Positions 79 to 38,269 of a DNA stretch of 64,000 nucleotides are shown here, piece by piece. How positions within the stretch are numbered: position 1 is the stretch's first letter; the number at the start of each line of letters is the position of its first letter. Both the position numbers and the translations under genes were made by a program. Under the pieces are notes generated by a model, which was not told where the DNA came from, made no database searches, and saw only the letters and a program-made list of their open reading frames with translations. The stretch lies in NCBI GenBank assembly GCA_017506865.1, contig JAFCMP010000036.1, forward strand, positions 62,001 through 126,000. Reading direction: 5' to 3'. This stretch comes from Tribonema minus (Eukaryota > Sar > Xanthophyceae > Tribonematales > Tribonemataceae).

Positions 79-3000
79 ATGGCCCCAGCAGGCGTGGACG
101 CGCTCCTCGCTCAGTTCACGTGCTATAGGGTAAGTGTCAATGAGCTTCACATAAACCACCTGTCCTCGTGTGGGCTGTACAATTTCGGTGTTCATGACCG
201 CCTTTTTAAGGAGGTGCTACAGTTCCGGGAGTGTTCTCCCATTTTTGTGCTGCTGTGTGCTGTTGTTGCGGTGCGCAGGATGTGGCGAGAATACGGTGGG
301 ATATCAGCAATGTCTTGACGAACGTCAAGACGTTGAGCCCCGCAGCAGGCTCCTTAGTCCTGAACACAGGAGAGGAACTGCACTTGGCGACGCTCGCTGG
401 CACCATCTCAATATCCTTCAGGGGTGCAAGCTACAACATACCAGTGGAAATATTCATCACCAAGCACTACCCGGAATCGCCTCCGATGGCGTACGTGAGG
501 CCCACCAAAGACATGGACATCCAGAAGGGGCACAGGTGCGTTACAGCTATGTGGGAGCACCTTCTTCAAATTAACCAATGGGATCATCATGAAGGCTTGT
601 CATCTCAAACAGTGGTGTCGTTTGTCACACCAAAGGGCAGGTGTCGACACTCATATCTTTTCAGTTGCGTAATTCCAACATGCAAGCACCGGGTGCGCGC
701 AGGCGATCAGCCACATGCCATTCACGGAGCGTCAACTCTCATGTTAGCAACGGATTTCTGCCGTGCTGTACGGCAATTGCGCCCCAGAGCTCTGTACCGG
801 CAAGGAGACACGCACGTCACAGCTCACGCACGCACACACACGACCTCCATCGTAAGCAGCAGCGTTTGCCGCGCCTAGCAGCAGGGCGTCCGCCGGGCCT
901 CACAGCAGCCAGCGCCTTGCGCCCTCGCCTACCCCCCCCCCCCCCCCCCCCCCCCCGCCCCCCGCCCCCCCCTCGCAGGCACGTCGACAGCGCGGGCATG
1001 GTCTACCTGCCCTACCTCCACGAGTGGGAGGCGCGCTCGCATGACCTCGTGGAGCTGTGCGCGGCCATGTCAGGGGTCTTTGGACAAGACCCCCCCGTGT
1101 ACGCGCGTTCCTCATCTGCGTCCTCCTCAGCGGGGGGGTCCTTCCAATCTGGGGGTTCGTCATTCCCGTCGGGGCTCTCCGGCGGGGGCAACTCAACGGG
1201 GCCGGTGAGCTCGGCGGCGTATGCGGGGGGAAAGCTGGGGGGGTGGGGGGGAGGGGCGGGGGGGGGGGCGGACTCGCCGCCTTCGTACGCGGCGGCCACG
1301 GCCGCGAAGGAGGACCCTGTGGAGGCTGCTCGGCGCGACGTAACTGTCAAGATGACAGGCACGCTGCAGGTGCGTGCGTGTGTTTGTGTGTGTAAGTGGG
1401 TCAGGTCCCGGGGGCGGACGGCCGTGTAATGCGAGGACAGCGGCGGCGGTATGCTGGTATTGGTGTATGGTGATGTACCATGGGCGGCTGACCTTCTTGT
1501 GGCACCGTCAACTTGCCAGGTGGTATGATGTTCGATTCAATGGTCTGATGACATACTGGTTGCTGAACCAATGTGACAATGTCGGCTGCCCACTCAATCA
1601 CTGGCATGCCTTTGAGCAACGTCACACCGTGTTGCCAGGCACTTGCATGCGACCCATCTACACTCTGACAAGCCGCGGGAGGGGGGGGGGGGGGCTCGCT
1701 GATGATGGAAGAGTACCCTGCAGCATAGCTGCTACAACCCTGCTGCTACCTGCAATGTGTGGCGCTGCTGCACCCGCTTGACTGACAGCTGCCACGCCAC
1801 AGGGCGCAACCTCCATCATGAGTACATCCACCGCAGCTGGTCGCTGCCGCAGCTGCTGCCGGTGCCTGCTGCGCGGCCAACGCGTAGTGCATCAGTCACT
1901 TGCTTGCGCGCGCGCAGCTGAACGCTACCCGTACCACTGCTGCTGCCGCCACTGCCGCAGGCGCTGTACGAGGACCTGCGCGGCAAGATTGACGCCGAGT
2001 TTGACGCGCAGACGGCGCTGCGCGAGAACCAGGTGCGGCTGGAGCGCGACCTGCAGCAGGCGAAGGAGCAGCGAAGGCACCTGTCGGGGCTGATACCGCT
2101 GGCGCAGGTGCGTCTCGCGGCGATTGTACAGTGCTGCGTTGTGATTGGTCGGTGCGCGGTGTTTGATGGCCATTCATCCAGGGCAGGTAGGTATTGGGTC
2201 TTGCTCATGCGTCGCAGCGTTGTTCTTGGCCGGCGTGCAGTGCGTGAGTGGCCTGTTCGCCTAGGGTATGCAGGTATCGGACTCGCTCGTACGGTGCGGC
2301 TTTTTGTCTGTGTGCAGTGCGCAGTTGTGGGGGGAAGGGGGGGGGGGACTGACGCCCAAGGTAGGCAGGTATTGAACCTAGTGACCAGGCTACTTGCGCA
2401 CATGTCCTGCACAGGTGCAAAGCAATCGCAGCACGCAGTTATAGCTCGAAATTACTCATTAGCTACCAGTCAAGCGTGCATGGGTGTCAGAAGCACCGGT
2501 GCGCCACTGACTGTTCTGATGCAACCTATTCGACCACCTACCGGTCGTCCCACGTGTCATATCCGCAAAAACTATTCCTGCCAGACTGCAGATGCCGTCG
2601 CATTGCATGTTGTTCACAGGTCACGACGGTCAGCTCCGTGGTACAGTGTCTGCCTGACAAGCAGACGGCCACTGGTCAAAGTCCAATATGCACCGGACTG
2701 ACAACTGTTCTCTCCGCGCTTCGCGCCGCGCCGCCGCCGCTGCGCGCGCAGGAGAAGAAGCTGGAGCTGGACTCGTACGCGGTGGAGCGCAAGGCGGCGG
2801 CGGCGGCGCACGCGCAGCCGGACGCGGAGGACCTCGTGGAAGCGCGCGATCCGCTGTCACGCCAGCTGCTGTCGCTCGTAGCGGAGAACGCCGCCATCGA
2901 GGACGCGCTGTACTACCTCGACCAGGTATGTATGTATAGTGGTTTTTACGAGCTTTGGGGGGATAGCAGGCAGGGCACAAATAACAGAGCGCATGTCTCA

Positions 3001-4549
3001 CTATCACACTGATGCGACCCGCTGTCGCTCTAGCTGCTGTCGTTCGTCGCGGAGAATGCCGCCATCGAGGACGCGCTGTACTACCTGGACCAAGTATGTA
3101 GGTATAGTGGTGGGTATATTGGGGGTATAGGGGTGTGCCGGCGCGCGCGCGCCTCACCGGCCGCAGCACCACGCGTCACACTGATGAACTGCGTGTTATT
3201 GTTGCATGGTGGTGATTGTTGCAACGTAGAGAGCTGCTGCTCACTAGCCTGTGGCTCCACACCGATAGGTGTAGACATCAAGGTTGACCGATGCAACAGA
3301 AGAGCGACGCCAGTCGTGAGCTGCCTAGACATGGTGGTATTGTGGTCTGTACCCGCAAGTGTAACTGCCGTAACCGTCTAGCGTGCAAACGGCAGTGAGC
3401 ATGTAAAAGCCACTTGTTTCAACAGTAAGTATTGGGCGTGTGGGTGTGCTGGCGCGCGCTTGCCTCGCGAATCGCGACACCACGCGTTGCGCGGATGAAC
3501 TTTGGGGTTGTGACGCGGCAGCCGAGATGGTTTGGAAGGCATGCACCCGTGCTGCATGGCACTTTACTAGCTGAATCAGGCATGTGGGTACATTGGCGCG
3601 TGTGGCGCGTGCCAGACGGACCGCGATACCACCGCTCGTGCATGCCGCGGCACCTCTGGTTGAACGTTGAGGGGGTGCACTCCCAACCGCATGCGCCGGT
3701 GTCCCCGCAGCACCGCCTGGCAGTACGCTGCACATCAGGCAGACGCTGCTGGAATTGCCATGGGGACATGTATCCATTGGCATGCTCAAATTACGTTGCG
3801 CTCTTTCTCCATGTGACAAGTCTTGTCGCGACTAGCACAATGCCAACATGCACGCATGGCGCCTCCGAACAGCAGTTGAAATGCTGGCTGAATCTGGCGC
3901 TCACGATGTGCTCACAATGTGGCATCGTTCCGTTTTGCACGCGTGCTGCAGGGCATCACCGATGGCAGGTTGAGCACTGACGAATTCCTGCGGGAGGTGC
4001 GCAGGCTCACGCGCCGGCAGTTTGCTGCCCGTGCGCTGGCGAACAAGGCAAGTTCAGCAAACTGTTTTACGCGCCTCTGTGGTGCTGTCACCTGGTTGCT
4101 GGTGGCTGTCGGTTGCGACGCGCAGCGATCTTACTTCAAGTTGAAGGAGAATCATGCGCCGCGCACCTGCCTACGTGTACCTACAAGCAGCAGCCGCTTG
4201 CGACTCCCGTGAGCAGGTGGATCGCCATCGTGTGCCGCATCACTGTAAGGAAACTAGCGCCAGACTGAAGTGTACTAGACTAGATGGGCGCATGCTGACG
4301 CACCGCACTCGTTCGTGTCATGCATGCCCGCAGGTCGTCGCCGCACAGCAGCAGCAGCAGCAGCAAGCGCAGCAGAGGCCGCAGCAGCAGCAGCAGCAGC
4401 ATGCCGGCTCGTACAGCCCTCCGCCGCAGCCGCGGTGGCAGCCGAATCAGCTCCCTCCTATCGCGAACGGCGCGCCGCAACTGCCGCCGCGGCGGCCCTC
4501 GCAGCAGGGGCAGGACGCGCACTGGCTGCGGCACCCGCAGCAAGCATAG
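79..4549 (+). CDS. TSG101: TSG101/Vps23, ESCRT-I subunit
   Basis: ESCRT-I subunit that binds ubiquitinated cargo and PTAP-type motifs at endosomes for multivesicular-body sorting. Exons read as 79-129, 279-535, 979-1369, 1961-2107, 2752-2925, 3952-4047 and 4334-4549; phases agree throughout and give 443 aa (human protein about 390). The N-terminus is a UEV domain, an inactive E2 fold: a YRD start, then FRGASYNIP, the P-rich YPESPP loop, and VYLPYLHEW, ending near residue 135. A Gly/Ser/Pro linker with a PPSY motif follows, then a coiled coil (exon 4) and the Vps23 core or steadiness box (exons 5-6). The last exon adds a poly-Gln/Pro-rich tail absent from animal TSG101. The ATG at 79 was chosen because it aligns exactly with the usual UEV N-terminus; the frame stays open to base 1. 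Intron 6 begins GCAAGT, a GC-AG intron. Exon 5 is partly duplicated downstream. Confidence 0.92.
932..978 (+). repeat. Poly-C tract forming the 3' splice site of TSG101 exon 3
   Basis: An almost pure run of C, broken by single G bases, ends in CTCGCAG at 978 and serves as the polypyrimidine tract for exon 3. Similar C runs precede other acceptors in this window. Confidence 0.75.
2846..3110 (+). repeat. Tandem copy of the TSG101 exon 5 3' edge and donor
   Basis: The last part of exon 5 plus the first bases of its intron (about 2846-2942) recurs at about 3014-3110, offset 168 bases. The copies differ at scattered, mostly synonymous positions. The second copy keeps a GTATGT donor after 3093. 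It has changed one codon into TAG at 3031-3033, which also makes a possible acceptor. Bases 3034-3093 would then be a 60-base in-frame alternative exon encoding a 20-residue near-copy of the Vps23 core. Confidence 0.85.
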
Positions 4550-6849: not shown

Positions 6850-6890
<41 letters not shown>

Positions 6891-9800
6891 GCGGCAGCGG
6901 CGAAGGCGACGGAGGCGCGCGGCAGCTGCTCGCGCGCGTCCTGCATGACCAGGGCATGGCCTGGATGAGCTACGGCTGCTGCGATGAGGTACTTGGGGGG
7001 GGACGACGAGATCACACTTGTGGACTTTGCTCTCGACAGGCATGTTCAATGGCGAGAAAGGAGTCACCAGGCTCCTCTGCCGCGGGCACAGGCCCCTCTG
7101 GTGAGGAATGGCAGACAGCCGCAGGGAAGCAGCAGCATTGCGCCCCGTTGTCATGCAGATAGTGTCAAACGTCTTCTGCGGGGAGGCAACCATGGGCCCC
7201 GTAGCTGCGACTGCATGTGACACTGCTCAGTGGCGCAGCCGTGTTTCCTGGCTCAGCGGCGCCGAGCGGCCGGCGTCCAGCTCCTGTAAAAAACATTATG
7301 TACCTGTATATACATATGAGTGCGCTTGGATGCTCTGCAGCGCGTTGAGGTACCGGAAATTGGGGCACCAGCGTTGAGTGACAGTGGTTGGACGGAGGGC
7401 CGTGTCAGTGTCAAGGCACAACCGCTTCACGCAACACTGTTGTTGGTGCCTTCACAGGCGCTGCCGCCCTCAGGCACAACATTGGACACCCGTTTCCGCC
7501 TTGCTGCTGCGCGCGCAGTGTGCCGCAGAGCTCACTGCAGCCAAACAGTCGACTTTGCTGAGCACTCGCCGCTGACTCGCGCCGCCACCGCCGCCGCCGC
7601 GTCCTGCGCACGCGTTCACACAGATGCTGGCGCTGGAGCCGCAGCAGTGCTCCAGTCACAGCACACCTGAGAGCCCCGTGCAGCCTCGTTCGCCGCGACG
7701 CTGACGGGGCCTGTGTGACTGTGGCTGCATGGTTTCACACGCGCTGCACGGCGCTCGTTCCCGGTGCGGAGCGTCGAGCTGCTGCCATCACTTCTCAGGC
7801 AAAATCTGACCTCGATATTACACAGCCCGTCGGGGCCGCCGTCGTGACTGCGACACCGCTCGTCTGTAATCTCCCTTTGCGGACGGCTCCGCGCTCTCAC
7901 GGCACGCACTCACGGCCGCACTGCCGCCGCCGCTTGCGCTGCTGCCGCCGCCGCCGCCGCAGGCGCTGTACGCGTTCGAGGAGGCGCTCGCGCTGGAGCC
8001 GCGGCAGCGCGCGCACCACCTCTGCCGCGCGCACGCGTGCATCCGGCTGCGGCGCTGGGCGGACGCGCTGGCGGCGCTGGTCGCGCTCGGCGCGCACCAC
8101 GCTCCGAGCGCCGACGTCTGGGTGCTCAGGTATTCGTCGCTCAACCTTCAACTCATTGAGCGCGCAAATGCTGACGACACAGTGGTGATCCGCAGACCGC
8201 GCTCCCAGCGCCGACGTCTGGGTGCTCAGGTGTGCGTCGCTCAACTTGTCGAGGGCGCGCGCGAGTGCTGATGGCTCCTGCGGCGCGTCGCGCTCCTCCG
8301 CTGCTGCGGCGGCGCCGCCGCGCAGCTGACCCTGGCTGTGGCAGCGCTCCACTGCTGGTGTCTGGGGCCGCGCCGTCGTTTGGCTCGACACGCGCTTTTG
8401 CGGAGGGATCGCGACGAGTGTTCCTCATCACCACCTTGCGGCGCCGGTTCTATTTTGTGAGCAGCAGCAGCCCTCGATGGTTGCCTCCGTCGTTGGCAGA
8501 GCCCGACCCTTCTGCGGACCCACCTCACCTTAGCGCTTGCCGATGTTGGCGCCAGCCCCATGCCCCCCCCGCGCAGCAATGCCGTTCCGCGTGTAACATC
8601 GCCGACTTCACGGCGCGCCTGGCGTGTTGACAAGGGCAGCGCTGTTGACTGAGACGCTCCACCTCAGCTTCTCGAGCGCACTTCCACCCGCTCTTGTGCG
8701 CTCGCCGTGGGTCTGGCGGCGGCTCTCACACCGCCCTCCTTGCTTGCCGTTCCATGCTGACCAGGGCTGAAGCTCAGCCCGGCGCCGCCACAGACATGGC
8801 GCATGCCGCCGCTGCCGCCAACCTTGACTTTACGCACCGCCACCCCGGCCCGACACCTCTCACGCTTGCAGCGACGCCGACACCGCACCACCGAGCGCCC
8901 GCTGCCGCTGCGCAATGACACAGCTTCCAAAGAGCACCCTCTGCCACTGCACAATGACGTTGCTTACGCGAGAGCGCCCTCCGCCGCTGCGCGCGCGACA
9001 GGGCTAAGGTGCGGCGCGCGCTGCGCGACGAGAGGGGCGCCGCCGCCGACATGGCGCGCGCCGCCGCCGCCGCGCCGACGCACCCCGAGGTCGCCACCTT
9101 CGCCGAGCAGCGCGGCGCGCGCAGCGAGGGGCTTTTCGCGGCGGCGGCGGCGGCGGCGGCGCGTGGCGACGACGCCGCCGCCGCCCGAGGGCTGAGCGCT
9201 GCGCTCGCGCTGACGCCGGATGATCTGAAGCTGCGCGTCGTGCGCGCCGCATGCTACAGGTGCGGGTGCCGCTGCGCCGCATGTGTGCGTGGTTGCAGAG
9301 GGTGTTGTATGACGGCAGGGGTAGCGAGGTGTGACTGTGTGTTGAGTGGTGGTGGCGCTGATTTTGGGGGGCAAAGCTGAGCGCTGCTGCTGCTGCGCTG
9401 ACGCGACGTACGCCGCGTGGCACCCGAAGCGAAGGCGGGACGAGGGTCAGCATGAGGTTAGAGTTGGGGTCGGGACCAGGGCACATGTGTGCTGACGCTA
9501 TCGCTAATCCTTGCCCATGACTGCAAATGCGCGTGAGAGCACTTGAGGCGAGCGCTGAGGTGCGCGCGTGAATTAGTCAATCAGCGGCATGCGGCAGGCG
9601 CTGCTAGGCTTACTATCAGGGTCAGATTCAGCGGTCGTGGGTGGCGTCGTCTCCTGCGCTGCTTGCCCGCGTGCACAATCAGTCCTGCTCAACGAAAAAC
9701 CGGAGCTGCACCGCGTCTGATGCATGGAGCGTGTGCCCTGACTCACGGATTTCATTGTCAGGCGCATGGGGCAGTACCAGGAGGCACTGAAGGACCTTGA

Positions 9801-12800: not shown

Positions 12801-14119
12801 GCTGCGCACGCGCGTGAGCATGGTCCACTACCTGCAGGCCACGCGCCTGTTCAACAACGGCGAGCTCGAGCGCGCGCACGCAGGTATGTATGTACCTATC
12901 ACAGCTGTATACCTACATACCGTACGAAGGATGCATGGTCCACTACCTGCAGGCCACGCGCCTGTTCAACAGCGGCGAGCTCGAGCGCGCGCACGCAGGT
13001 ATGCATCTACCACAGCGGTGTACCTACCGTATGAAGGATGCGTGCGCGAATAATACAATCATGCCGTTCTCGGCCTCCTCGTCGGCAGCTTTGCTCTGCT
13101 CTGCCTCGCTCCAAGTAGGCGGTCTCTTGAGTACTTGCCCGTAGTACATGTTATTAAACTACTTCAACATGAACTATGCACCTTCTGAGCGCTGCTCCCA
13201 GGGAGTGTGCACAGCCGCTCCAGTGCCTGCACAAGCATCATCCAGAGCAGCACCCGCGGCAGTGTCTGCCACCACACCCGCGTCCTCCGACTGCCCCCCT
13301 CCCTCCCCCCCCTGCGCGCCGCGGCCGCAGCGTTCTCTGCGGCGATTGCGAGCAACGACAGGGTGGCGGCCTACTGGCTCGCGCGCGCGCATACGCCGGC
13401 ACTTGCCGTGATTGCATAAGCGTCATTCAGAGCAGCGCACTGTCTGCCACCACACTGGCATCCACTAACAGCGCATCCCCCCCCCCCCCCCCCCCCTGCC
13501 ACGGCTGCAGCGTTCTCGGCGGCAATCGCGAGCAACGACAGGGTGGCGGCCTGCTGGCTCGCGCGCGCGCAGTACAGCCACTGCGCAGGCACTTGCCGTG
13601 ATCGCACACTGTACGCCTCATTGAGAGCAGCATCAGCTGCGGCAGCGCGCACCACCTCACACGCACCGACCCCCCCCCCCCCGCCCCCCCCCCCCCTCGC
13701 GCCGCGGCCGCAGCGTTCTCGGTGGCGATCGCGAGCAACGACAGGGTGGCGGCCTGCTGGCTCGCGCGCGCGCAATGCAGCCACTGCGCAGGCACTTGCC
13801 GTGATCGCATGCGCGTCATTCAGAGCAGCACAGAGTCTGTTACCACACTGGCATCCACCAATAGCGCCCCCCCCCTCCCCCCCCTGCCGCGGCTGCAGCG
13901 TTCTCAGCGGCGATCGCGAGCAACGACAGGGTGGCGGCCTACTGGCTCGCGCGTGCGCAGTGCAGCCACTACTCCGGCGCGCACACCGCCGCGCGCCGCG
14001 ACGCCGCCGCCGCGCTCGCGCTTGACCCCGCCAGCGCAGACGCGCACGTGCTGCTGGGGCAGTTCGAGGCGCGCCGCGCTGAGCCGCTGCCGCTGCGCGA
14101 CGGGGGCGGGGGCAGGTGA
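5885..14119 (+). CDS. TPR-repeat protein, possibly TTC16-like
   Basis: Tetratricopeptide-repeat scaffold protein. Exons read as 5885-5968, 6680-6988, 7963-8129, 9002-9259, 9762-9966, 10997-11122, 12079-12279, 12793-12883 and 13899-14119, giving about 553 aa with consistent phases. TPR-like helical pairs are visible, for example LYQRAVAILEHKP in exon 1, ALRKALF-type and ALALEP segments in exons 2-3, GQYQEALKDLDDA in exon 5, LADYEQALQLQPD in exon 7 and AAALALDPASADAH in exon 9. Poly-Gly and poly-Ala runs interrupt the repeats. The ATG at 5885 is the first in frame. The end of exon 5 is uncertain (9842 or 9966; only 9966 keeps phase). The stop assumes exon 9 reads through a GTGAGC at 14116; splicing there would instead lead to a short terminal exon near 14578. 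Similarity to the ciliary-type protein TTC16 is an impression only. Exons 3, 8 and 9 have partial tandem copies. Confidence 0.7.
8101..8275 (+). repeat. Duplicated 3' edge of TPR exon 3
   Basis: The last 29 bases of exon 3 and roughly 45 bases of intron (8101-8175) recur exactly 100 bases downstream (8201-8275) with modest divergence. The second copy again ends CTCAG before a GT at 8230 and is preceded by GATCCGCAG, a possible acceptor. Confidence 0.8.
10790..10985 (+). repeat. Imperfect direct repeat in TPR intron 5
   Basis: A block containing CCGCCTCTGACC, CGCCGGTAGGCGCATGC and GCGCTCACCT occurs twice about 96 bases apart, just before the exon 6 acceptor at 10996. It contributes to the sequence upstream of that splice site. 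Confidence 0.6.
11132..11275 (+). repeat. CAG/GCA triplet repeat in TPR intron 6
   Basis: About 140 bases of GCAGCA triplets with interspersed GGC start just after the exon 6 donor at 11123. The stretch is intronic in the model used here; read in frame it would give poly-Gln, poly-Ser or poly-Ala. Confidence 0.8.
11418..11463 (+). repeat. Interstitial telomere-like repeat (TTAGGG type)
   Basis: Degenerate GGGTAAGGG units pass into three clean GGGTTA units. They lie in intron 6 of the TPR gene. Smaller CCCTAA-type remnants lie at about 12298-12318 and 12534-12558 in the next intron. Confidence 0.8.
12800..13045 (+). repeat. Duplicated 3' edge of TPR exon 8
   Basis: From within exon 8 (about 12818) through its donor and about 50 bases of intron, the sequence recurs 115 bases downstream (about 12933-13045). 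The second copy has one clear coding change (Asn to Ser) and ends at the same CGCACGCAG before GTATGC. It lacks an obvious acceptor. Confidence 0.85.
13290..13960 (+). repeat. Four tandem copies of the TPR exon 9 5' edge
   Basis: Four copies of a unit made of a C-rich tract, a GCAG acceptor and about 60 coding bases begin their exon part at 13331, 13511, 13714 and 13899 (steps of 180, 203 and 185). Only the last runs on into the rest of exon 9. The first three pass instead into a shared intronic sequence (GCAGGCACTTGCCGTGAT in two of them). Each is preceded by a long C run. Confidence 0.9.
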
Positions 14120-15281
14120 GCCCGCGCGCAGCGATATGCTCAGCGGCAGTGCCGTGCGGGCTTCGACGTCTGAGCTTGAGTGTGATAAGATCGAGCTACG
14201 AGGCAGAGAAGCGCGTCGCAGCTGACGCCTGCGTTGCGCGGGAGGGGGCGCGGGGACTGCGCGGTGGTGTGGTGACATGCCGAGTTTGGAACTTCGAGTT
14301 CAAGCTGCCTGTTGGAGACAGCGCTCGTTTCCACTGGACCATGAAGGTTTTGGGTGTGTCATTGAATACCTCATGTGTGTGGACTGGACATGCACTCACT
14401 GGCGGTTTCTACAGAGCGCCCCGCGTGCAAACAGGCGCTGCAAATCAACCGTTCAACATCACCAGGTCCCACCGCCGCAGTGCCAGGCAGACCGCAACTG
14501 CTGGTTGGGGCTCCCACGGGCCCACTTGACAAGTCTCCTAACGGTCGTTGTGGTCTCACGTGCGACTGCGCCCGCAGCTCGCGGTGCCCAAGTTCGTGAG
14601 CCTGCGAATCATGTCTGCGCTGCTCGCTATGGTGAAACATCGCGCAACAGGCGGCCTCGCTGGCACAGACACTTAGGGTTAGGTTAAGTCAGGGTTAGGG
14701 TTAGGGTTAGGGTTAGGGTTGACCCTAAGCACCGCGTGCGCGCGGGACGTCATATTCAAGGCGCAGACTGAACCAGAATTTCATGTGCGAGTCATAATGT
14801 TTTAAAATGATGGCAGCTGCAACCAGCAAGTGCCCGCCATAACGGCTGTATCATTGCGCGCGCATCATGTCGCCGCTGCCGACTCCAAGAGATGCGGCAT
14901 TCCGCAATGCATGCATACCTGCGACTGCTGCAATACTGTGCACGCTGCCGGGGGGTCGCCATATCCTCCGCAAATGTGATATCATGCGCCACGGTTATTG
15001 AGAGGGCCATGACTATGACAGAGTGGAGCCTGTTGGCAATCGCCACGGGTTCCGCACTTCTCAAAACTAGCATTTTCAGAGCACCAGGCAAACCATGGGC
15101 ATAGGATTCGCAGAGGTGGCGGCGCCACCTTTCGCTGCTCGGCAGCTGCATCAATCCAGAGCGCGCTGGCTTTCGCTGCGTCTGAGCGCGCAGCGTACAA
15201 CAGGGTGGCGCTACAGGCAACTTGAAGCAGCGCCAAAGGGCGCACAGCGCAGCGCAAGGCACGCCCCAGCATACTTCCAGT
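14120..15281. other. Intergenic region with telomere-like repeats at 14674-14733
   Basis: No convincing gene. A good acceptor at about 14577 opens a 32-codon frame ending in TAG near 14675, which may be an alternative last exon of the TPR gene although its phase does not match. Immediately after it lies a run of GGGTTA units (14674-14733), the cleanest telomere-like array in the window, ending with a reversed GACCCTAA. Confidence 0.6.
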
Positions 15282-22947: not shown

Positions 22948-25900
22948 ATGCAATCGCGCTTAGAATCGACGGAGCGCAACTTGGCACAGCTGGCACGAGA
23001 GCAGCTCAAAGCCAGTTCGTTCAAGCTGGCGGATTCTTCAGCCAATGGCAGCCAATATCACGATGAGATTGCTGGGAAGGCCAACAAGCTCATACTTCAA
23101 CTGAAGAGCGATGTCAGGACGCTCAGCAAGTACGTCTCTCGGCTGCCTGCCACCGACAAGGCCGCTGTGCTGGTGCCCGACCACATGAGACTCAGAGTGC
23201 ACGCTGATGTGGCAGCGCAGGCGCAGGCGATGGAGATGAGCAAAGCCGCGGAGGCCGTGGTGGGGGTGGTGGCACTGGAGAAGCTGCTGGAGCAGGTGAG
23301 AGATCAGTGTAATAGATTGCAACCTGATTTCACCAGAGTACGCTTTGAACTTGATGAGATGTGGGCACTGGTTGTCCATGAAGCTTGCAGCAGCCACATA
23401 ATTCACAGGGACGATAGCAACGTATGGGGCAGATGCCCATGAGTCATGAGAGTGACTTGCCGCGCATGCCATACGCCGCCGGTGCCGTTGCCGCTGACGG
23501 CAGCGCGCTCGCAGCAGCGCTTAACACATTTCTTACTCGATGAGGCCTGGAAGAAAGATGTTGTGATGAAATTCAGCAGGCGCGCTCGGTCACGACAAGT
23601 CCGCAAAGCGTTGCTCTGCTCGTCACTTCGCTGCACCCCGAAAATGCTTCACACATTCAGGTGAAATCTAGCCTCACAAGGCCAGGTTGAGGCCACGCGC
23701 ACCTGCAACTTCACAAGTGAAGTTCGCTGCACCGCGCACGCCCACCAGGTGCCCCCCTCGCACTCACACATACCTTTACACGAACGCCACAGGTGCCCCT
23801 CGTCCCGACGGCGGCCGCCGAGGACGCGCGCGAGGCGGCGCTCGCGGCAGCGCTCGACACGGTGGCGCGCCTCGACGAGCTGCGCGGCGGCCTCATGGCG
23901 GCGCTCGAGCGGCGCCTCGCCGCCGCCAAGCAGCAGCTCGACCGCGACTTCGGCGCGAGCTTCCTCGACATGCAGGCGTTCCTGCGCGCGGAGCAGGACG
24001 TGCTCGCTGCCGCGTCCGACGCGCGCACGTGCGGCCAGGGCACCATCGCGTTCGTGCAGGTCACGCACCAGGTGCGCCGCCGCGCCGCAGCTGCCGCTGC
24101 CGCCGTAGGTTCCGATACAGCAGCTGCCACTGCTGCTGCCGCGTCGCGTTGCGCTGCTGTTGCCACCTCCACGCCTCCGCCGCTGCCGCTGCGCGCCGCT
24201 GTCGCGCTGCCCGCCAGTTGACGCGGCGCTTGGCCATGATTGCCAAGGCGCCGCTGTATGCGCCGGCAGATCCTCTGCCGCATAATGAGGTCGGCGCTGA
24301 GCGGGCTTACGTATGCCTGCGACTTGCAGCACGCGCGCCTCACACTCCCCGTGCCTGCAGCGCTTCGTGCCTGATGCAGGCATGGCAGCGTTACTATTGG
24401 CGACAGTGCATTGCCGTGTGTTTGCAGCTTGCGCACACGACGCGTGTTGTGCCGCCTAGCTACCGCGGGGCGCCACGCGCGCGTGGCGCGAGCACCGCCG
24501 TGCACTGCTGATCTGTCGCCTGCATTTGGGAGCATTCGTATCGCTGGCGAGTGCAGCAGGCTGTGGGCGCGCTTGCAGTGACACGGCCTGAACCGAGGCC
24601 GTGCAGGCAGGGGGCGCTACTTCTGGTCGTGCAATGGCTAAAACATCACAACGGAGGAGGCCGCACATGACCAAGATGAAGCCATTCAAGAGTGCCGATA
24701 GTGGGCATATCGAGCTCACAGAGACGCTTGTGGCAGCGGCCTGCGCCGCTGTGCTGCCGGTGCCGTGCAGCTGCGTGCTGCCCCGCGCCGCGCTTTGCGT
24801 TTCGAGCGGGCCGCGTTCACAACATAGGGGTGTGTGGCATGCATTGTCGAGCGCCGCCTGCTAATGCACGCGCGCAGCCTTACTGTGCTAAGCACGGCAG
24901 CACTGCGCGCAGCGGCGGGGCACCGCCGCATCTGAACGTACAACGCATGTGGGTCACGGGCCGATGTTGTGTCATGACATTGGTGATGAACAGGACAGGC
25001 CGCTCTCACCCGCAACTTGCAGTGCGCATGCCGCGCGCTCTGGGTGCTGGCATACTAGAAGCATGAAGCTGATGAAGATAGATTAGGAGCCCACCAGGGC
25101 ACTACATTTGAGTCCACAGTGACTGTCATCACCCATAAAGCTGATTGATTAGATGGAAATTGTAGATTGAACAGGGACCCATCAGGCCAACACTTTTGAG
25201 TCCACTGCAATACCCCCCCCCCCCCCCCCCCCCCCGCACGCATCAGCGCCTGCCCCCAACCCCCTTGGTACCCCCCCTCGCCCTCCCCCCCCCGCCCCCC
25301 ACAGTTCCAGCTCCTGGCCCACGCGGCCCACGGCCTGCGCGCCGTGCGCGAGGGGCTCAGCCACGCCGTGCTCCTCAAGCAGGCGCGCGCGGAGCGCCAG
25401 GCGCTCGCCGAGCAGCTCGCGGGCGCGCAGGCGGAGCTGCGCCGCATCCACCACACGTGAGTTGAGCGCTGTTGCTGCGTGCTGGCTAAAGTAATCATCA
25501 TCGTATGGCGGTAACACGCCGGCAAAAGTGATCATCGCCGTACAGCGGCAACAGTGATCATCGTCATTAAAGCGCCTTTCACTTGGATTGTGAATCCGCG
25601 CTGCGCCGCATCCACCACACGTGAGTCGAGCGCTGCCACCGTGCGCGCAACGGCGATCATTATCATTGCAGCGTCCTCTACTCAGAGTGTGATTGAGGGC
25701 GGCGCCGCATCTACCACACGTGAGTCAAGCGCTGCTGCTGTGTGTGCAACGGCAATCATAATCGCAATGCAGGCGCCTGATTGTACCGCGCGCCAAGTGC
25801 TACTGCCGCGCGCATTTGAGGCAGTGCTCGTGCATGTGCCCCCGCGCAGCCCGCCGTGCCGCAGACTCTCGACGTGGGGCCTGAGCAGCCTTTCATTCAG

Positions 25901-28900
25901 CAACAGAAATGAGGCGCAAGCGCTGTCTGGTTTGCTTATTCCATGCCGCGCCGCGTATCTGCCACACGTGCGCTGAGCGCTGGCGCGCATGTGCGCAACA
26001 GTGAGTCACTCGTGGTCAGAGTCATGACTCAGATTGCGACTCAGACGTGTTGGTGGTCCAGGTTGCTCACGTCGTACCCTGCCCTCACCTCTGAATCTCA
26101 CACCCGGACAAGCAATTCCTGAAACAAGCACGCGCGCATGTGCTCCTGCTGCAGATATGCCGAGATGCTAACACCCGAGACGTCCAAGGGACTGGCCAAC
26201 AGGCAGCGCATCGCGATAGAGGTTTGTAGCATACCGTATGCATGGGGACTCATGGCAAATTGGGCTGTGGCGGAACTTGATGGCAGCCATGCGGCGGCGC
26301 GAGGAATGCTGTGTTTTGTGTATATCATGAGCCTTGTGGACATGTTCCTGGTAGTCTCACCGGTGTGGGGTGTGCTGCGCATTGTCGCACAGTATCTGAG
26401 ATGTCAAAGAGGGTTAGGGCAGGGTTAGGGTTAAGGTTAGGATTTAACAGGGTTAGGGTAGGGTCAGGGTTTGGGTTAAGAGGTACAAGGTTCACCGGTG
26501 TGGGGTGTGCCGTGCATTGTTGCGGAGTGCCTGAGACGTTGAAGAGAGTGTGTGTAGGGTTGGGGTTGAAGAGGGTTAGGGTAGGGTTGGTGTTAGGTGA
26601 GGTCAAGGCTCACTGCTCAGTACTGCTCGGTGACTGGACCGTGCCAAATGCGTACTGTGAGCACCAGTCACAATGGTGCCAGCAGTGTTGCGCAGTCATT
26701 TAAGAGTACCGCTTGAGGCGTGCATACTCTTCAGGCAGGTCAAAAGTACACCGCCATGTCTACAGGGATGCCCAGATTCTTGACAGCGCGACGAGATGCC
26801 TCATCATGTAATTTCAAGGCCTGGCAACATGCTTTTCAGCAGCCTGGGAACATGACGATGCCCATGTGCAGCATAATCCCGTACGCATCATTGAACTTCA
26901 AATTGGCCACGTCAGGAGCCTATGTGACTTGTATCGCAGTGGCATGTTGCTGCACGTATTCAGCTGCCACCGCAGTGTCCAAACCGCAGGTGCACATGCT
27001 GAGTGGGACGGTCCTGACTGGCAATCAGTGCGTAGAAAATTTTTCGTGCAGCTGGACCCGCAGCACGTAGCTGCCATGTGTCGCAGGCCGCACCTGGGCC
27101 CTGCGACTTTGTCTCTGCGTCACACATCGAAGTTTGGCATGTTGAAGTGCATGAGATGTTGTGAGACAGCGTGCTCTTCTCCACTTGGCCTGTTTACTGA
27201 AGATCCCGCAATTCCTGGTCTTCTGTGCAGGAGCTGACGGCGCAGGCCAAGGCGATCAGGGACGAGAATGGCAGTCTCAAGCTGCAGCTCGACAAGTCAA
27301 CGGCTCAGCAGGGCCGCGTGTCGGACCTGCTGGCTGACGCACAGGTGCATGCCAAACTCAGCAGCACGCTGCTGCTGCTGCTGAGAACACGAGCACCAGT
27401 GTCAAAGTTCAACTCCAAACATCAAGTCGAAGTCATGAAGCGTACTCTTCAGCATTGGTTGCGGCAGCAGCGCGTGGCGCAATGCACCAGCGCGCACTGC
27501 GACGCAGGCCAACGCACAGGCGCGCGCAGACCTCACCATCATGCTGCTGCTCAAGAAGCACGCGCCGTGTCAAAATTCAACTGAAGTCATCAAGCACGCC
27601 CTCAACATTGATTTGTAGCAGCGCGTGGCGTGATGCGCCAGCGCATCGATACGCGCGCGCGCTGCGATGCGGGCGGCACCATATGGACGATGCTGCTGCC
27701 TCTGCGTGTCCGCAACAGCTGGAGCGCGCTACCGCCCACAGCGATGCTCAGCAGAGAGGCCTCGATGGCGATGCAGCGGCGCGGTGCGCACTGTCCGGCG
27801 GTAATGCATGCGGTCGGCGGCGGCGGCGCACTGCCTGTTGGCGGGAAGCTACGCACAGCAGCACACTTGATCATGTGTAGCGAGCTCTGCACTGCGGCGA
27901 ATGATCGGACCTCTACTTCAGTGCGCGCTGACTAGGCGCGCACTTTGCATCTCCGCCCACGTCGCAATCTCGCATGTCAGAGAGCAGGCGACCCGCCCTA
28001 CCCACCAGCTACTTTCCACAGACAGGCTCTCACCCCGGTCCTGAAACGTCCTTTTTGAACTTTGCAGATGGCGGTGGAGGCGCAGGGCGCGCGGCATGGA
28101 CGTGAGCTGGCCCGCCTGAAAACCCAGGTCAGCGCGCCGCCAGCTGCAGCAGCGGAAGGCCATGCATGTCGGCTGCTGCTGCGTTGGCGGCAGCACCGGC
28201 AGACTTTGCATGCTTGGCTGCTGCAGTGTAACAGCGCGCCCTCTTGCGCAATGCGAGGCGGAGCGAGGGGGGATGGGGGGGTTGCGCAGCCCATCGAGAC
28301 CCCCAGCCGTGCACCGAGATCTGCAGACTGCATTACTGGGCTTGGGCTACTGTGAAAGGGGGGGGGGGAGCCCACAGAGCCCCTGCTCTGCACCGAGACC
28401 TGCAGACTGTTATGCTGGGTCTTGGGGCACTGTATAATGAGGAGCTCACCGAGACTCTGGTGTTGACTAAGATTCGCAGACTGATTGCAGGCGAGAGTGC
28501 GGGCATAGTGTGGTACTTGCGAGGTGCACAGTCCGAGCAATTGCGCTTATGCTCCCACCGCGCATCGAGGAACGTTGTCAATCCCATGCGGCTGCTAACA
28601 CGCAGTAGCCTCGCCCCACTCTGATGCATCGGCGCTTCGCTTCGAAGATCACTTGTCCCTCCCTCAGGCGCACTGCACTTTGCCGGCCCATCTCGTGCGC
28701 GCATGCCCCCTGTGTGATAAACCGTCCGGCGCCGTCCCAGGTACATGTAGGTTGTCCGCCCCCTTATGCAAGAGGGAGTAAAGTAAAGTACATGTACGCG
28801 GCACAGATAGGTGTGGAGACGCATGCGCCGAGTGCCAGCACCTATACGCGCAGGACGCACCGTGCTTGTTTCACGAAAGCGCGGCGGCCGACGCGCGTGC

Positions 28901-31900
28901 ATCGCATCGCCAGCACCGGGACGCGTGCGATGCGCGCCCTCGTGCCGCCTCTCACTCCTCCCCGGCGCCGCCGTGCCGCGTGTGCGCGTTGCGCGCCCTG
29001 ACCCTAACCCTAACCCTCACCCCATTCCCAACCCTAAACCCTAACCCTCACCCTGAACCTCAACTGTTACCCTAAGCTCAACCTCGCCCTAAACCCTAAC
29101 CCGATCCTAACGCTAACCCCAGGTGGAGTCGATGCGCGCGCGCGCCGAGCAGCTCGAGTCCCTGGCCGCGCAGTCGCAGACGCACATTGCCATGCTGCAC
29201 AGCGCCAATCGCCGCCAGGCCGCGGAGCTCGAGCGGCTGCGCGCGCCGCCGCCCGCCGCCACCGCGCCCGCTGCCGCCGCTGCCGCCGCACCCGAGGCGA
29301 CGCCGCCGGCGCCGCTGACGCCCGCTCGCAAGCTCCGGGGGGGCACAGGCGGCGGCGGCGCCGCAGCTAGGAAGCCGGCCAGCGCTGCAGGTGCGACTGC
29401 AAATCTCGGCAGAGCCATCGGTCCTGAGCAGAAGCGAGGGTGTCCAGCACAGGGCCTTGCGCTGTGTGCCTTGTTGGAAACGTGTGGCGCGGATCGTTCT
29501 CGCGCGACGTAAAGGCAGGGCACGCGCCTGCACCCGCTGGGGGTACGAGCCCAATGGTAGTAGGGGGACACAGCCTATACTGCAGCAGATTTTGACCTGC
29601 GCGATGAGGCCTTCGATCGCGTCTTTCCCATCATGGCACACGAGCAGCGTCTTGAAGAAACACACACAGGATGGCTGCCAGTGGTCGTCGCGCTGAGGGG
29701 CTGCGCCAACGCGGAGCGCCTGCAGTGTGTTTCCCCCCCGCGGTCGACCACGTGCGGAGTGCGCGTCTTCACGTGCGCACTCGCCCTTGCCACGCGTATT
29801 CCATCAACGGCGTCGGCGCGGTGATGCGTTGTGCACATCGGGCCCCGAGCGCAGCGCCGCCGCCGCCGGTTCTGCGGGCTCCCGCAGGAGGGGGTAGGTA
29901 TCGCCCGTCCATCTGCAGCCGCAGCGGAGCGATGGCGCGGCAGGCACACTTCACACAGCTGCCCGCGCCTTCAGACGTCTGTGTGTATGGAGGTGACCGC
30001 GCCGCTTCAAGCCGCAGCAGCGATCAGCAGCGCTACTCCCTAACGCGCACGTCCCATCATCTCTGTGCGCGCGCAGGCGGCGACGCGGCGGCAGCGGCAG
30101 CAGCAGCGCCGGGTGAGGGCGCCACGTGCTGGGAGGAGCTCGAGCGGCAGAACCAGCTGCTGCGCGGTCAGGTCAGGCTGGCCCCCAGTCGCTGCAGTGG
30201 GTCGTGGTATGGTGCACGCGTCGTCGCCGGATGAGGCGATTGCAGCATTGCTTTGCGCTGTCGTGCGTCTGTTAGCGCAGCCGCATGCAGCTTGGTACCC
30301 GGTCGTTGCTTGCAGAGAGGTCGCTCGTACAGAGATGCCTTCGGCTGCATCACGGCACCCGCATGCACACCCATTGGGGCTCTGACGGTGGTGCGGCAGC
30401 AACGCTGCTCAGCGTGCGCACAGACTCAGACTCAGACTGACTCGTGGCGGTCCTGGTACATCCAGCATGGTCATGAGGTGAAGCTCGTGGTGGATCGTCA
30501 CGGGCGGATCGTCACGGGCGCTCTGTTGTCATGCAACTCTATGTCGTGTAACTCAATGGAAATTGGGTCCTGGGAAGTCATGGTTGCCGCCGTGCTCAGC
30601 GCCAGCACACTTCACGCTGGCGACGTGCGCTCGGCAATGCACATGCGGAAAGGCGGGCATGATGTCCCGCCCGCTGCTTGTTGCGCAGGGGCTTTTGCAT
30701 TGGCCCCGCCAGCGCCTCCGCGCCACACGCCGCAATGTTGATTGCGGCACGTCGTGCAGCAGCGCATGCCACTTAAACCCCCGACACGCACGGCTCGTTC
30801 GCCGCACCTCGCCGCCTGACGCTCTCTCTCGCCGCATCGCTGCCGCGCGTCCGCTGCGGCCGGTGCAGGCGGCGCGGAAGGCGCGGCTCGCGCTGGTCGC
30901 AATCGCGGCGCGCGACGCGGCGCTCAAGTGCGGCACCGAGGACCACGAGCGCGTCAAGGCGCTCGCGGCGGAGGCGGCGGCGCTGCGCGCGGCGGCGGCG
31001 GCGGCGGCGCAGGCAGCGGCCGAGGCAGCAGCTGAGGTAAGGGCAGTTCTGGTGAAGTTCCGCTGCGGCGTTTGTGCTAGAGCGCGTCGCACTGGATGGC
31101 ACATGTGTGTGCTTCAAAGTTGTTTTGTTCGTGAGGGCACGCGTCCTCCTCGCTGTCGCAACCATGCAGCTGTCGCAGGATTCACAGTCACGGTCCAAAT
31201 TTGTGGCCTGCCACCGAGTGTGGTGAAAGAATGTGGCATTGCTCCAGTGCACCGCATGCCACTCATCGAAGAATCCTATCCCTGATTGCTAGTCTCAGAA
31301 GTAGGTACGCACGCCGCCGCCGGCAGCAGCGTCACCGCCGGCACCGCGCCTTGTCGCCGCCTCCACCTCTGCCGCTGCCGTGCATCGCGACGACACGCGG
31401 CGTGCTTGCGGTGCCTGCCTTTGACACCGCACGCATGCGCAAGCGGCAGCAACCCCTGCCCCAGCACAGCGCTCAACAATCCCCACCTATCCGCACACGC
31501 GCATCTCACCGCGCGCGCAGCACAGCGCGCAGCTGGCGGCGCTGCGCGCGGCCGCCGAGCATGCGGCGGCGGCGGCGGCGGAGGAGCGCGGCGCCGCCGC
31601 CGCCGCGCGCGCGCGCCTCACCGACCGCGACGCCGCCGTCGCCGTCATGGAGCGCCAGGCCGCGGAGGCGGAGGAGCGCCGCTGCGAGCTGGCGGCAGCG
31701 GCGGCGCGCGCGGAGGCGGCGCTGAGCATTGCCTTAGAGCCCAAACTTGTCAGCGCCGCGTGCGTGCAGGCGCCGGACCCGCACGACGACGGCAGCGGCG
31801 ACGCCGTGCTGTGGGCCGCTCAGACGGCCCCGCCGCTGCCGCCGGAGGGGGTTGCGGAAGGCGGGGAGGGCGGCGGCGCGCAGGCGCAGGGGGCGCAGTT

Positions 31901-34190: not shown

Positions 34191-35320
34191 GGCGGTTTTC
34201 AGGCGCCTGGTTTGGGGGAGCGGTGCGGCGGCAGCGACGATGATGCCGTCAATTCTGGAGGTGGTGGTGGCCGCAGTTTACATGTGGACGTCTGCAAGCG
34301 TCTGGAGGCGAGCGCTTGTGGTGCGGCAGAGCGTGTGCTGCATGGCAGCATTGCAAAGTTGTCAACGAGTCCATGATTTTGTACTTGGAGTGCAGCTGAT
34401 GCCCCCCCGGGCGGAGCGTATTCGCACAGTTGGCCAACGTAGCCGCTGGGCAGTTACACGGGAAGTGTTGCACTGATGAGGTGTCGGCAAAGGGGCGGGG
34501 GATAACATGATCCTGGCAGGCGTCTACACAGGGATGACAGTCATGTGTCCAGTAAAATACATCTTTTGTGCCGACAAACCGTCCGGTATTTTTGTAATGT
34601 TGTGTTGGCAAATCAAGTGGGCACATCGCGGCTGGTGCTGCAGCCATTTAGTAAAAGCCGCAGCAGCGTCAGTCAGTAGCTGAAGCAAGCCAGATGCTGC
34701 TGTAAGACTTGCATTACTTTCGTGAGAAATTGAGCTAAATTGTGTTTTGTGTAAGCATCAGGCAAGATGCTGATCCAGCCATTTTGGGCAGACAGGGCCC
34801 TGCCTGAACGTACTGGGCGAAGCAGCCCCGCGGTCATCGTCATTGCTTCAAGGAAGGGGAGTCATCATGTGTAAATCCACGCTTTGCATCTGTCATCGCA
34901 TCGCCGCGTAAGTTCATTGCGCTCACCGCTTAACGGCCGCAGGCCACCAACTGCTGCGACAACAGCAACCCCGCTCTGGGCGGCGCGCTCACCCGCGGTC
35001 AACCAAAGTTGACACTCACACACGAAGTTCAAGTAGTGGGAAAAAAACTTTCAAAAAAAGCGAACGTGAACTGAACTGAACTGCCTTAAAAGCACACGCA
35101 CTCGGCAGCGTCAGCTCTAACTGACCACTAGGCACTGGTGCATGCGCCACGGCTGGCAGTGATCGCTGCCAGCCTGCACAGAGCCGTGCGCGTCTCGGCC
35201 GGGAGCGACGCAAGCGAAACCCTCGGCAAACCCTTCTCGCTCGAAGGTTGCAGCCTTCGCTGGAGCTGCACAGTCCGCTCTGCACTCCAGGCCGTGCTGG
35301 AGTGCGTCTCAGTCACCAGC
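34191..35320. other. Divergent intergenic region
   Basis: About 1.1 kb separating the divergent membrane-protein and Sds3-like genes. It should contain both promoters. AT-rich stretches lie at about 34500-34780; no exon recognised. Confidence 0.5.
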
Positions 35321-38269
35321 ATGGAGACACCAGCATCTGCTGCTCCTGGCCCCGGTAAGAACAGCATGTCAGCATTGAGGTTCTTCGCGTTTCCGCGAAA
35401 GTTTGTATCCTGTGGCGTGTCGGCGTGCTCATGTGTCCGACACTGCCCCTGTCCACAGCATCTGCCAGCACATGTGCCTCGGCAATCAATGCTCATCCCG
35501 CTTTGGCTTCTCCTGCGTCCGTTGCAGGCTCATCACCGCCAATGCAACTAGCCCGTGGAAATGGCGCAACTGTGCAGTCGCAGCTTGCCAGTGGTGCTGC
35601 TGGTGCATTAGTGCCGCAGCCACCTGTACAAACGGTTACTGTCAACGGCTCCAAAGATGCAGCAAAGGAAGTCAGTGCAGCGCAGCAGTCGCCGCCGCTT
35701 TTCCCACCCGAACGAGCTGCGGCGCCTGCGACTCCCGGCATTGCTGGAACCGGTGCAGCAGATGCGATGGTGTGTGATGTAGCAGATGATACAATCACAT
35801 CACTCACAGAACGCCCTCATGGTCTGCTACGACCAACCAGTGCTGTTGAACCAGCAGTTGCAGCGGTCAGCAAGGCGCAGCTTGGCACCAACGGCGGCAG
35901 CGAAACCAGATCCGCTGCACCGCCTGCACCTGTTCCTTCTACTGCACCTGTCCAAGGTTTCCCACCTCAAAATATACCTGAAGCGCGGCCACATGGGGCT
36001 GCACTCTTTGTACAGACAACTGATGCTGCCGCAGCAGCAGCCGCAGCGAGAGCAGAGGAAGCACGAGCAGCGGCAGCGGCAGCGGCGGCGGAGGCAGCGG
36101 CAGGAGCAGCGGCGGCGGCGGCGGCAGCTGCAAATGCGCACCTTCCGCAGCAGGTCGCGCCAGCAGCGCCCACCGCTGCGCCGCTGCCGCCGCTGCAGTA
36201 CCTGGAGCCGCCGCCCCCCACAACGACTGACGCTGCCGCCACGAGCAGCGTCGGTCAGCCAGCATACGTGGCGGCCGCCATGGAGGTGGCGTCAGCGCCG
36301 CCAGCTGCAGCAGCAGCAGCAGCGGCAGCAGCGCCGGGGGTTCAGGGGGGCGCAAGCGAGGCGGCGGCAGCGGGTGCGGCGCGCGACGCGCAGGGGCGGG
36401 ACGCGACGCTGGAGGAGAACCGGCTACGGTCGCAGCGCGCGGCGCAAGCGCGCGTGCGGGAGCTGGAGGAGGAGCGCGCGGCGATAGGTCAGTGCTCGGC
36501 GGAGCGCGCGATTCGCGGCATCAGAGCTTAGCACATTGTGATTCAGCGGGCAGCGCATGAAAATTTGTTGAGACAGTGCTTAGCGCATTCAAGTCAGCAC
36601 TGATCGACTCGCTGCGCAGCGCGGCGCCGCAGCGCGTGCGGCCGTCGCGCGCGCCCGCTGCGCGCGGCGGTTACAGAAGAGAGAGGCAATTGATGCGCTA
36701 CCGCTGCTGCGCGCTGGTCGCTGCCCTCTCTGAGGTAGATGCCGTGAAGTGATGGGCGAGCACTGGGCACAGGCTCGCTGAGAGCGTCGACAATGCGCAG
36801 GCGCAGGCGCCGCGCGCAGGTCTCGCAGCACGTCTCAGCGGATGCGGCGCACGCGCGCCTGAGTGTAGAGTGAATCGCGCAAATGATCGCCAGTTGCGGT
36901 GTGCGCAGGCCGCGCATGGAGCGGCGCAGCCCCACTCCATTTTGCAGCAGCGCAGCGCCGCATCCCGCATTGGCACCTTCTTTCTCAGGCGGCTCGGAGC
37001 GCTGCGCGCGTATGCTGAGCGCTGTGCATTCACGCAGCAGCTGTGAGTGCTGCACACGCACACACGCATGCAGCAGCGGGGAACACGCCCAATGGCATCT
37101 GGTTGATCGGCTGCAGTTCGGGTGATTTGGCCGGCGGCGGGAGAAGCTTCGCGGTCTCAAGCGGCCAGCGCGGCGCAGCGACGACAGCGCAAGGGACTTG
37201 GCGCGTCCGCAATAGCGTTGAGCACTGCTGTATTCTGCCAACATTGCCATTGTTAAAGTTGTGGTGAAATGGGACGTTGAGTACGCTTTGGCTCAGCAAT
37301 CGCGAGCAGCACCCTCAATTTCCTCGAAATGCGCGACGCTGCTGCAGGCGCTGACGCTATCTGCTTTTTACAGCATCAGGATGCGCTCCGCATGCCAGAC
37401 AGCGCGGTGGGGTATCTGTACGCCTTCTCACGGCCCATGATTCCCGTAATGCTGTTAGTAATGCTCCATCAAAGCCTGCGTTGACGCCCGCACGACGGCC
37501 TCAGCGCTTCCCCCCCCCCCTCTCTCTCTCCCCCGCCCGCGGCGCGCCCCGCAGTCGCGGGCACGCACCTGGAGGTCGCACGCCAGCTGCGCGCGCTCGA
37601 GGCGCGCCTCGATGATTCCCGTAATGCTATTAGTAATGCTCCTTCGAAGCCTGCGCTGACGCCCACACTCAACGGCATCCGCGCTTCCGTCCCCCTCTCC
37701 CTCTCTCCCGCGGCGCGCGCCGCGCAGTCGCCGGCACGCACCCGGAGGTCGCGCGCCAGCTGCGCGCGCTCAAGGCGCGCCTCGCCGCGCGGCTGCGCGC
37801 CGCCGACGCCGCGCTCGCGCTGCAGGAGGCCAACTACGCCGCGCTCCTCGACTACGAGCTGCGCGAGGCTGCGCACCACTGCGAGGCGGCGGTGGAGCGC
37901 GCCAAGGACGAGGCCGCGACGGCCATGGCGGCGCGCGCGCGCCAGCTCGAGGGCTTGCGCGATGGCGGCCCAGGCAGCGGCGGCGGCGGCGGCGGCGGCG
38001 GCGACTTCCGCCCGCACACGCGCTTCATGCGCTCCCGCGGCGGCGGCGGCGGCGGGCGCTTTGAGGAGGACGGCGGCGGCGCGTTCGCGCTCATCGGGGG
38101 CATCGGCGACCGGCGCGGCGGCGCCAAGCGCGGCGGGCGCTGCGCGACGCCCGTGTGCAACTTTGCGCGCGCGCTCGACGAGGACGACCTCCTGGACGAC
38201 GTCGAGATGATGAAGGCGGAGGCGGACGACGCGGCGGCGGCGCGCCAGCGCAAGCGCGGCCGCGCGTGA
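35321..38269 (+). CDS. Sds3/BRMS1-like Sin3-HDAC corepressor subunit
   Basis: Likely chromatin corepressor subunit that bridges Sin3 and histone deacetylase. Exons 35321-35354, 35459-36487 and 37728-38269 agree in phase and give 534 aa. The first two-thirds is low-complexity Ala/Pro/Gln sequence. The recognisable part starts in a charged helix at the end of exon 2. It continues with GTHPEVARQLRALKARLAAR, a long acidic/basic helix through LLDYELREAA, a HTRFMRSR segment resembling the TRKLRRR motif of Sds3 proteins, and an acidic end with ALDEDDLLDDVEMMK followed by a basic KRGR tail. This order of HPE motif, coiled coil, TR-R motif and DDL helix is that of Sds3/BRMS1 family members. Gly runs interrupt the C-terminal part. 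Exon 3's edge has an extra upstream copy. Confidence 0.55.
37438..37790 (+). repeat. Tandem copy of the Sds3-like exon 3 5' edge
   Basis: A unit of about 174 bases starting GATTCCCGTAATGCT, with a C/T tract, GCAG acceptor and about 60 coding bases, occurs twice (acceptors at 37554 and 37727). The second copy continues into exon 3. The first copy reads the same frame with a few substitutions and ends at GATGATTCCC before a GTAATG, so it could be spliced as a separate small exon. Confidence 0.88.

Follow-up and report, generated by a model that had tools for sequence, protein, structure and literature searches.

Tandem copies of exon edges and their splice sites exceed random placement at predicted junctions in a sample of the Tribonema minus genome

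When a stretch of coding DNA carries partial tandem copies that run across its exon-intron junctions, are these copies new introns and exons in the making, or the remains of a more general duplication process? The question is raised by a 64,000-nucleotide stretch of the Tribonema minus genome (hereafter the window: contig C36, positions 62001 to 126000, of a 158-Mb genome in 554 contigs), for which the original prediction named six exons in four genes with copies of this kind.

Copied exon edges in the window

All six predicted copies were found, each with its splice dinucleotide retained. In the alignments, every copy is direct and takes in the edge of an exon, the splice site there and a piece of adjoining intron, with copies offset by 99 to 203 bases (Table 1). 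At the TSG101-like locus, edge and spare were identical at 71 of 80 bases with a period of 168, and because the intron parts share their final ten bases, the copying probably took in the full 168-base unit. Within this spare an exonic CAG has become TAG, which places a candidate acceptor ending at 3033. Four units were observed at TPR exon 9, three of them upstream spares with exon-like starts at 13331, 13511 and 13714, and every spare unit possessed a C-rich tract and a GCAG acceptor. At the putative coiled-coil gene approximately 21 exon bases were copied together with the donor, the copies ending at 25620 and 25719, and a weaker copy lay near 25947.

Table 1. Canonical exon edges and their spare copies in the window (positions are those of the window).
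Feature	Position	Strand	Details
TSG101-like canonical exon	2752..2925	+	copied edge 2846-2925, donor GT at 2926; start of Vps23 core
TSG101-like spare edge and donor	3014..3130	+	exon-like part 3014-3093
TPR exon 3 canonical donor edge	8096..8129	+	exon ends 8129
TPR exon 3 donor-edge spare	8196..8229	+	34 exon bases copied, 2 differences (hand count)
TPR exon 8 canonical unit	12818..12932	+	donor edge to 12883, donor, first intron bases; period 115
TPR exon 8 spare unit	12933..13044	+	exon-like part 12933-12998, 1 difference from 12818-12883
TPR exon 9 acceptor-edge tandem spares and intron part of canonical unit	13223..13898	+	
TPR exon 9 canonical	13899..14115	+	
Coiled-coil (putative) canonical exon	25305..25456	+	copied donor edge 25436-25456
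Coiled-coil (putative) donor-edge spares, two	25600..25764	+	from 25600 and from 25699
'Sds3-like' acceptor-edge spare unit	37437..37611	+	exon-like part from 37555; period 175
'Sds3-like' canonical unit and exon	37612..38269	+	exon from 37728

The gene labels proposed with these loci fared unevenly. TSG101 was borne out by matches to UEV and Vps23_core; the TPR label just reached the cut-off (a fragment of exons 8-9 reached one of six TPR models, TPR_2, at 27.2 bits against a cut-off of 27); and the label Sds3 was not upheld, with zero Pfam matches. Two of the six loci were used as queries in a genome sequence search that skips very common words. The TSG101 exon edge matched only itself and its spare, and the spare is thus no stray paralogue. 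The Sds3-like unit matched itself and a 63-base stretch on another contig.

The window also contains imperfect telomere-like arrays of TTAGGG/CCCTAA in both orientations, away from contig ends, at 14673-14720, 26410-26478 and 28996-29119, as well as a tandem repeat at 49037-49200 comprising two copies of an 80-base unit with 97% matches. Rfam models at gathering thresholds gave zero matches within the 64-kb window.

Junction copies across a 344-kb sample

The analysis was extended to a sample of 344 kb (the window plus a further 280 kb; six blocks that together make up 0.2% of the genome). Exons in the sample are the predictions of a simple purpose-built gene finder, trained on the window exons and run without RNA. 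The blocks have a GC content of 55-64%, with 92% G or C at third codon positions of the predicted genes, and the predicted introns have GT-AG ends, with GC-AG at 37 of 296 donors. Nine of the ten host products, translated without spares, matched a Pfam family, the TPR product barely among them; the supported hosts include UEV with Vps23_core, an inward-rectifier potassium channel, an adaptor complex subunit, NAD kinase, histidyl-tRNA synthetase, a short-chain dehydrogenase, PRP38 and an ABC1 kinase.

Duplications were sought by blastn within blocks (at most 1 kb apart, at least 70% identity, low complexity removed, loci merged). This yielded 66 direct-duplication loci against a single inverted one, and none in dinucleotide-shuffled blocks. 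Primary periods ranged from 90 to 544 bases with a median of 195. Four repeats retained at least 85% identity over the whole unit; three of the four end in alignment overlaps of 2-5 bases, a figure that carries no chance control, and the duplications may have originated by microhomology or slippage. The rest of the unit was homologous at z >3 in 23 of 41 pairs and showed no homology at that level in the other 18, which leaves contiguous tandem origin unproven there.

Two further ideas were set aside. Periods of 150-210 bases accounted for 26 of 66 loci (19.3 expected from a log-normal distribution, p 0.049) and periods of 300-350 for 11 of 66 (5.9 expected, p 0.03), statistics too weak to claim a clustering at one and two nucleosomes. 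Neither do exons appear to be GC-driven hotspots: the GC content of non-exon repeats was 0.543, not above that of introns (0.547-0.596 by block). The C100 block has a lower GC content and 25 direct-duplication loci in 40 kb. It also holds a 56-base segment repeated at 98% identity 201 bases away (25703-25758 and 25904-25959 of that block), which plain tandem duplication does not explain because the flanks are unrelated. In the C10 block, with 61 junctions, zero loci passed the filters, and two weak matches of 71-73% were seen at 827 and 1089 bases.

The original prediction stood to fall if junctions proved no more duplicated than other intronic positions, and a comparison of this kind was made by rotating the annotation. 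Exons of at least 90 bases were considered, with alignments of at least 75% identity, a period of at most 600 and the junction at least 12 bases inside the copy. Each junction was expected in one particular copy, the upstream copy for a donor and the downstream copy for an acceptor. Among 49 alignments and 368 junctions, 26 expected-copy junctions were observed against 7.2 under rotation, and none of 3000 rotations reached 26. Junctions in the wrong copy numbered 1, with 7.2 expected from the same orientation-aware rotation. The predicted direction (donor spares downstream, acceptor spares upstream) therefore holds, a rule that follows from tandem duplication itself, since the body of the exon keeps its link to just one of the copies. 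Similar figures were obtained when rotation covered all block bases (26 against 7.1) or omitted the predicted gene holding the potassium channel (20 against 6.1). That junction copies exceed random placement is thus supported in the 344 kb sampled, where the comparison came out on the side of the original prediction.

The excess was 3.2- to 4.5-fold in each of the blocks with copies in gene spans (C36a, C36b, C457b and C100), and C10 and C457a contributed zero junction copies. Near-whole units, which form the younger class, showed a 2.0-fold excess (10 against 5.0, p 0.02) and partial units were found 17 times against 2.7. These orientation-aware values replace earlier direction-blind rotations, whose expectation was doubled because a junction was allowed in either copy, and which gave a 2.1-fold excess overall, 19 against 14.9 for near-whole units (1.28-fold, p 0.17) and 1.12-fold for younger ones (p 0.42). 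The spread between genes was very uneven: 13 of 24 predicted genes having three or more longer exons had none, while pairs were present at eight different edges of the predicted gene holding the potassium channel and at four of the NAD kinase gene (hand count). Introns holding a spare were longer, with a median of 1619 bases (n 25) against 562 (n 146).

Outside the sample, a single DEAD-box helicase gene was inspected, chosen because two neighbouring exons matched the family. Its four exons of at least 90 bases carried copies at four of eight edges under the 12-base rule, all on the expected side (with stricter blast scoring than in the sample). A looser reading gave seven of eight edges, again all on the expected side; of the looser copies, one takes in 10 intron bases, one only 3, and the third ends 13 bases before the junction in one alignment and runs 3 past it in another. 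A whole-genome search for the kinesin family, which is independent of the gene finder (138 matches, E up to 5), revealed by eye five neighbouring pairs sharing at least 19 profile positions within 600 bases, and all five had the expected direction. The corresponding search with the DEAD domain (36 matches, E up to 0.001) gave zero such pairs.

State of the spare copies

Requiring at least 12 exon bases and a kept splice dinucleotide gave 81 candidate pairs, and 42 nonredundant pairs had at least 25 exon bases at 80% identity or more. In the latter the exon parts are approximately 90% identical, the longest being 99 bases. The intron parts of the spare units are mostly 50-70% identical with many gaps, and gap-free similarity stops a median of 18 bases into the intron. 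Constraint had been argued from this divergence between exon and intron alone, an argument we abandoned: at pseudo-junctions placed in intron-only repeats the exon/intron mismatch ratio was 0.56, compared with 0.38 at real junctions, and the gap ratio 0.26, compared with 0.05, which makes the contrast largely an alignment-end effect.

Could all or a sizeable fraction of the spares be working alternative exons kept by selection on the protein product? Several observations are consistent with this. Relative to the intron rate, divergence at codon positions 1, 2 and 3 is 0.34, 0.40 and 1.05; the first two values are slightly below the 0.5 predicted for an unconstrained spare opposite a constrained exon, although all three lie near its expected 0.5, 0.5 and 1, in keeping with spares that decay freely. 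The pN/pS ratio is 0.27 (0.21-0.37, 29 clusters) as against 0.53-0.55 for a simulated neutral spare and 0.83 for intron-only repeats, and gaps occur in exon parts at 0.0043 per base, less than half of the 0.0199 in intron-only controls. Among pairs chosen without requiring the dinucleotide, a usable one is present in 35 of 36 spares, and GT has become GC in 2 of 25 donor spares. Furthermore, our gene finder calls several spares as exons.

The same spares also speak against such a role. Frameshifting gaps occur in 9 of 42 and none in 33 of 42, and the two groups have equal pN/pS (0.26 and 0.28, respectively); for this reason constraint on the spares is not claimed, although the low ratio hints at it for some of them. 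Only 1 of 11 gap lengths is a multiple of three. Stop codons, seen twice where 4.3 would be expected under neutrality, fall within the neutral range of 0-9. At the outer edge of the 42 spares, the best second splice site within 12 bases was like that of random intron (KS p 0.33), and the idea that the spares are full alternative exons, each closed off by a fresh splice site at the copy edge, was rejected on this ground. The TSG101 and TPR exon 8 spares have candidate acceptors further inside the copy, uncounted by this test.

The effect of a spare on the encoded protein was also assessed. Adding spares split the ABC1 match into three stretches and lowered it from 214 to 193 bits, and the TPR_16 and TPR_2 matches were lost. 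Vps23_core, matched over 1-64 of 64 in one stretch without the spare, rose from 82.7 to 100.4 bits with the spare included but in two stretches, the total score rising because part of the domain is matched twice. The TSG101 spare put in place of the canonical edge, by contrast, still gave a match over 13-64 of Vps23_core, which favours an alternative exon at this locus. NAD kinase domains were unchanged since the spares fall between domains. In several housekeeping-enzyme hosts a partial exon would be expected to break the fold. Taken together, we regard working alternative exons as unlikely. The spares look like mostly decaying relics, which would normally be spliced out with the intron.

Origin of the junction copies and relation to known systems

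A simpler account holds that tandem duplication is random, that copies decay more slowly on the exon side, and that junctions are in no way special. The pseudo-junction control lends this some weight, reproducing as it does much of the exon/intron contrast, as do the smaller excess in near-whole than in partial units and the direction-blind p of 0.17. Decay was simulated with random unit placement, rejection of units inside exons and decaying copies, with and without large insertions and deletions. Under neutral decay, junction copies made up 18-34% of detected pairs, and exon parts exceeded 100 bases in 34-58%. Observed junction copies were present at 25 of the 36 gene-span loci, or in 31 of 49 alignments (loci merge alignments, so the unit differs), with exon parts above 100 bases in 0 of 42 pairs; a copy wholly within a longer exon was found at 1 of 36 loci. 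Decay lifted the simulated junction share only from 0.28-0.29 to 0.32-0.34, with no rise under the 12-base rule (observed, 3.6-fold), and near-whole units already show their 2.0-fold excess. The decay model is simple and intron turnover poorly known, yet the gap to observation is wide, and we consider it quite improbable that chance and decay explain everything.

Gene conversion, with DNA or a spliced cDNA as its template, might refresh the exon part of a spare, and the early end of gap-free similarity beside an exon identity of some 90% is what it would produce. However, divergence at third codon positions equals that of introns; the exon part was therefore not refreshed en bloc, and this origin appears very unlikely. 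An artefact of assembly or gene prediction is barely credible: the exons do come from a purpose-built model without RNA, but nearly all host products match a Pfam family, the kinesin search also shows the copies, and these are diverged, as originally predicted, nearly all direct (66 to 1) and spread over several contigs, unlike assembly stutters.

The explanation that we favour, with a probability of roughly 0.55, is frequent short tandem duplication that leaves decaying spares at junctions, where they are over-represented beyond modelled slow decay. On this explanation the genome would often make short direct tandem duplications. Where a unit crosses a junction, the exon body would remain joined to one copy, and the other, an edge with its splice site, would lie within the intron and be removed along with it. 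Units wholly inside exons would be lost by selection, and the spares would decay, mostly without function. The excess may reflect junction-biased origin, preferential retention or both; most likely it is a mixture in which duplication is somewhat favoured at junctions and junction copies are lost more slowly. A bolder view, which we hold only tentatively, is that junction-preferring duplication is ongoing, that for almost all edges of certain genes splice-competent spares lie in the adjoining intron and that these form a reservoir for new introns, shifted splice sites and alternative exons. As for the proposal that tandem duplication is here a route to new introns and exons, its foundation stands in the diverged junction copies on several contigs, whereas exons or introns in the making are not supported.

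Duplications that span junctions, differ widely in age and lie in genes whose domains can be recognised would make the rise, decay, silencing and use of such copies measurable, and open to study what has been proposed as source material for intron and exon gain. They also carry a warning for annotation, as the spares resemble coding exons and are readily mistaken for them.

Introners are dispersed families that act as a source of introns on the genome scale. The junction copies share with them the prospect of an intron source on that scale, and a genome search with two loci, the TSG101 edge and the Sds3-like unit, found no introner-like dispersed, near-identical family. In the AGGT model, as here, a short internal duplication supplies splice signals; there an exonic segment is doubled to give a new intron, whereas the present copies derive from junctions already in place and lie within introns that were already there.

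That duplication can be a source of introns and exons is an old idea (PMC2891723; PMC9013439, PMC6071210, PMC9741552, as far as the available parts of these reports go). In potato, a tandem duplication across an intron-exon boundary led to a new intron (PMC4974935, available portion). Whole-unit copies at TPR exons 8 and 9 and at the Sds3-like exon are likewise duplications across an intron-exon boundary, and, as at TPR exon 9, the potato unit takes in the branch site and tract along with the acceptor and the first part of the exon. The potato example, as presented in that portion, is a single case, backed by a phylogeny, in which the new intron is spliced, whereas here dozens of copies occur in approximately 350 kb, on both sides of introns and at the level of DNA only. 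For novel intron positions in Drosophila, the accessible text of PMC2891723 proposes partial exon duplication with splice motifs as an intron source; exonic proto-splice sites are duplicated in that model, real junctions here. Mutually exclusive tandem exons, in the sections available of PMC9013439, PMC6071210 and PMC9741552, resemble the present copies in having homologous exon sequence in tandem, sometimes with adjacent intron. They are nevertheless entire exons, flanked by a splice site at either end and supported by expression, where the present copies have one edge only, and the outer-edge test of the 42 spares gave no sign of a second site there. No genome-wide report of junction-edge copies was found among the literature matches listed, in which subscription journals are thinly covered. 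What sets the present case apart from these systems is the density of the copies, a junction excess seen at either end of introns and the spread of ages within one genome.
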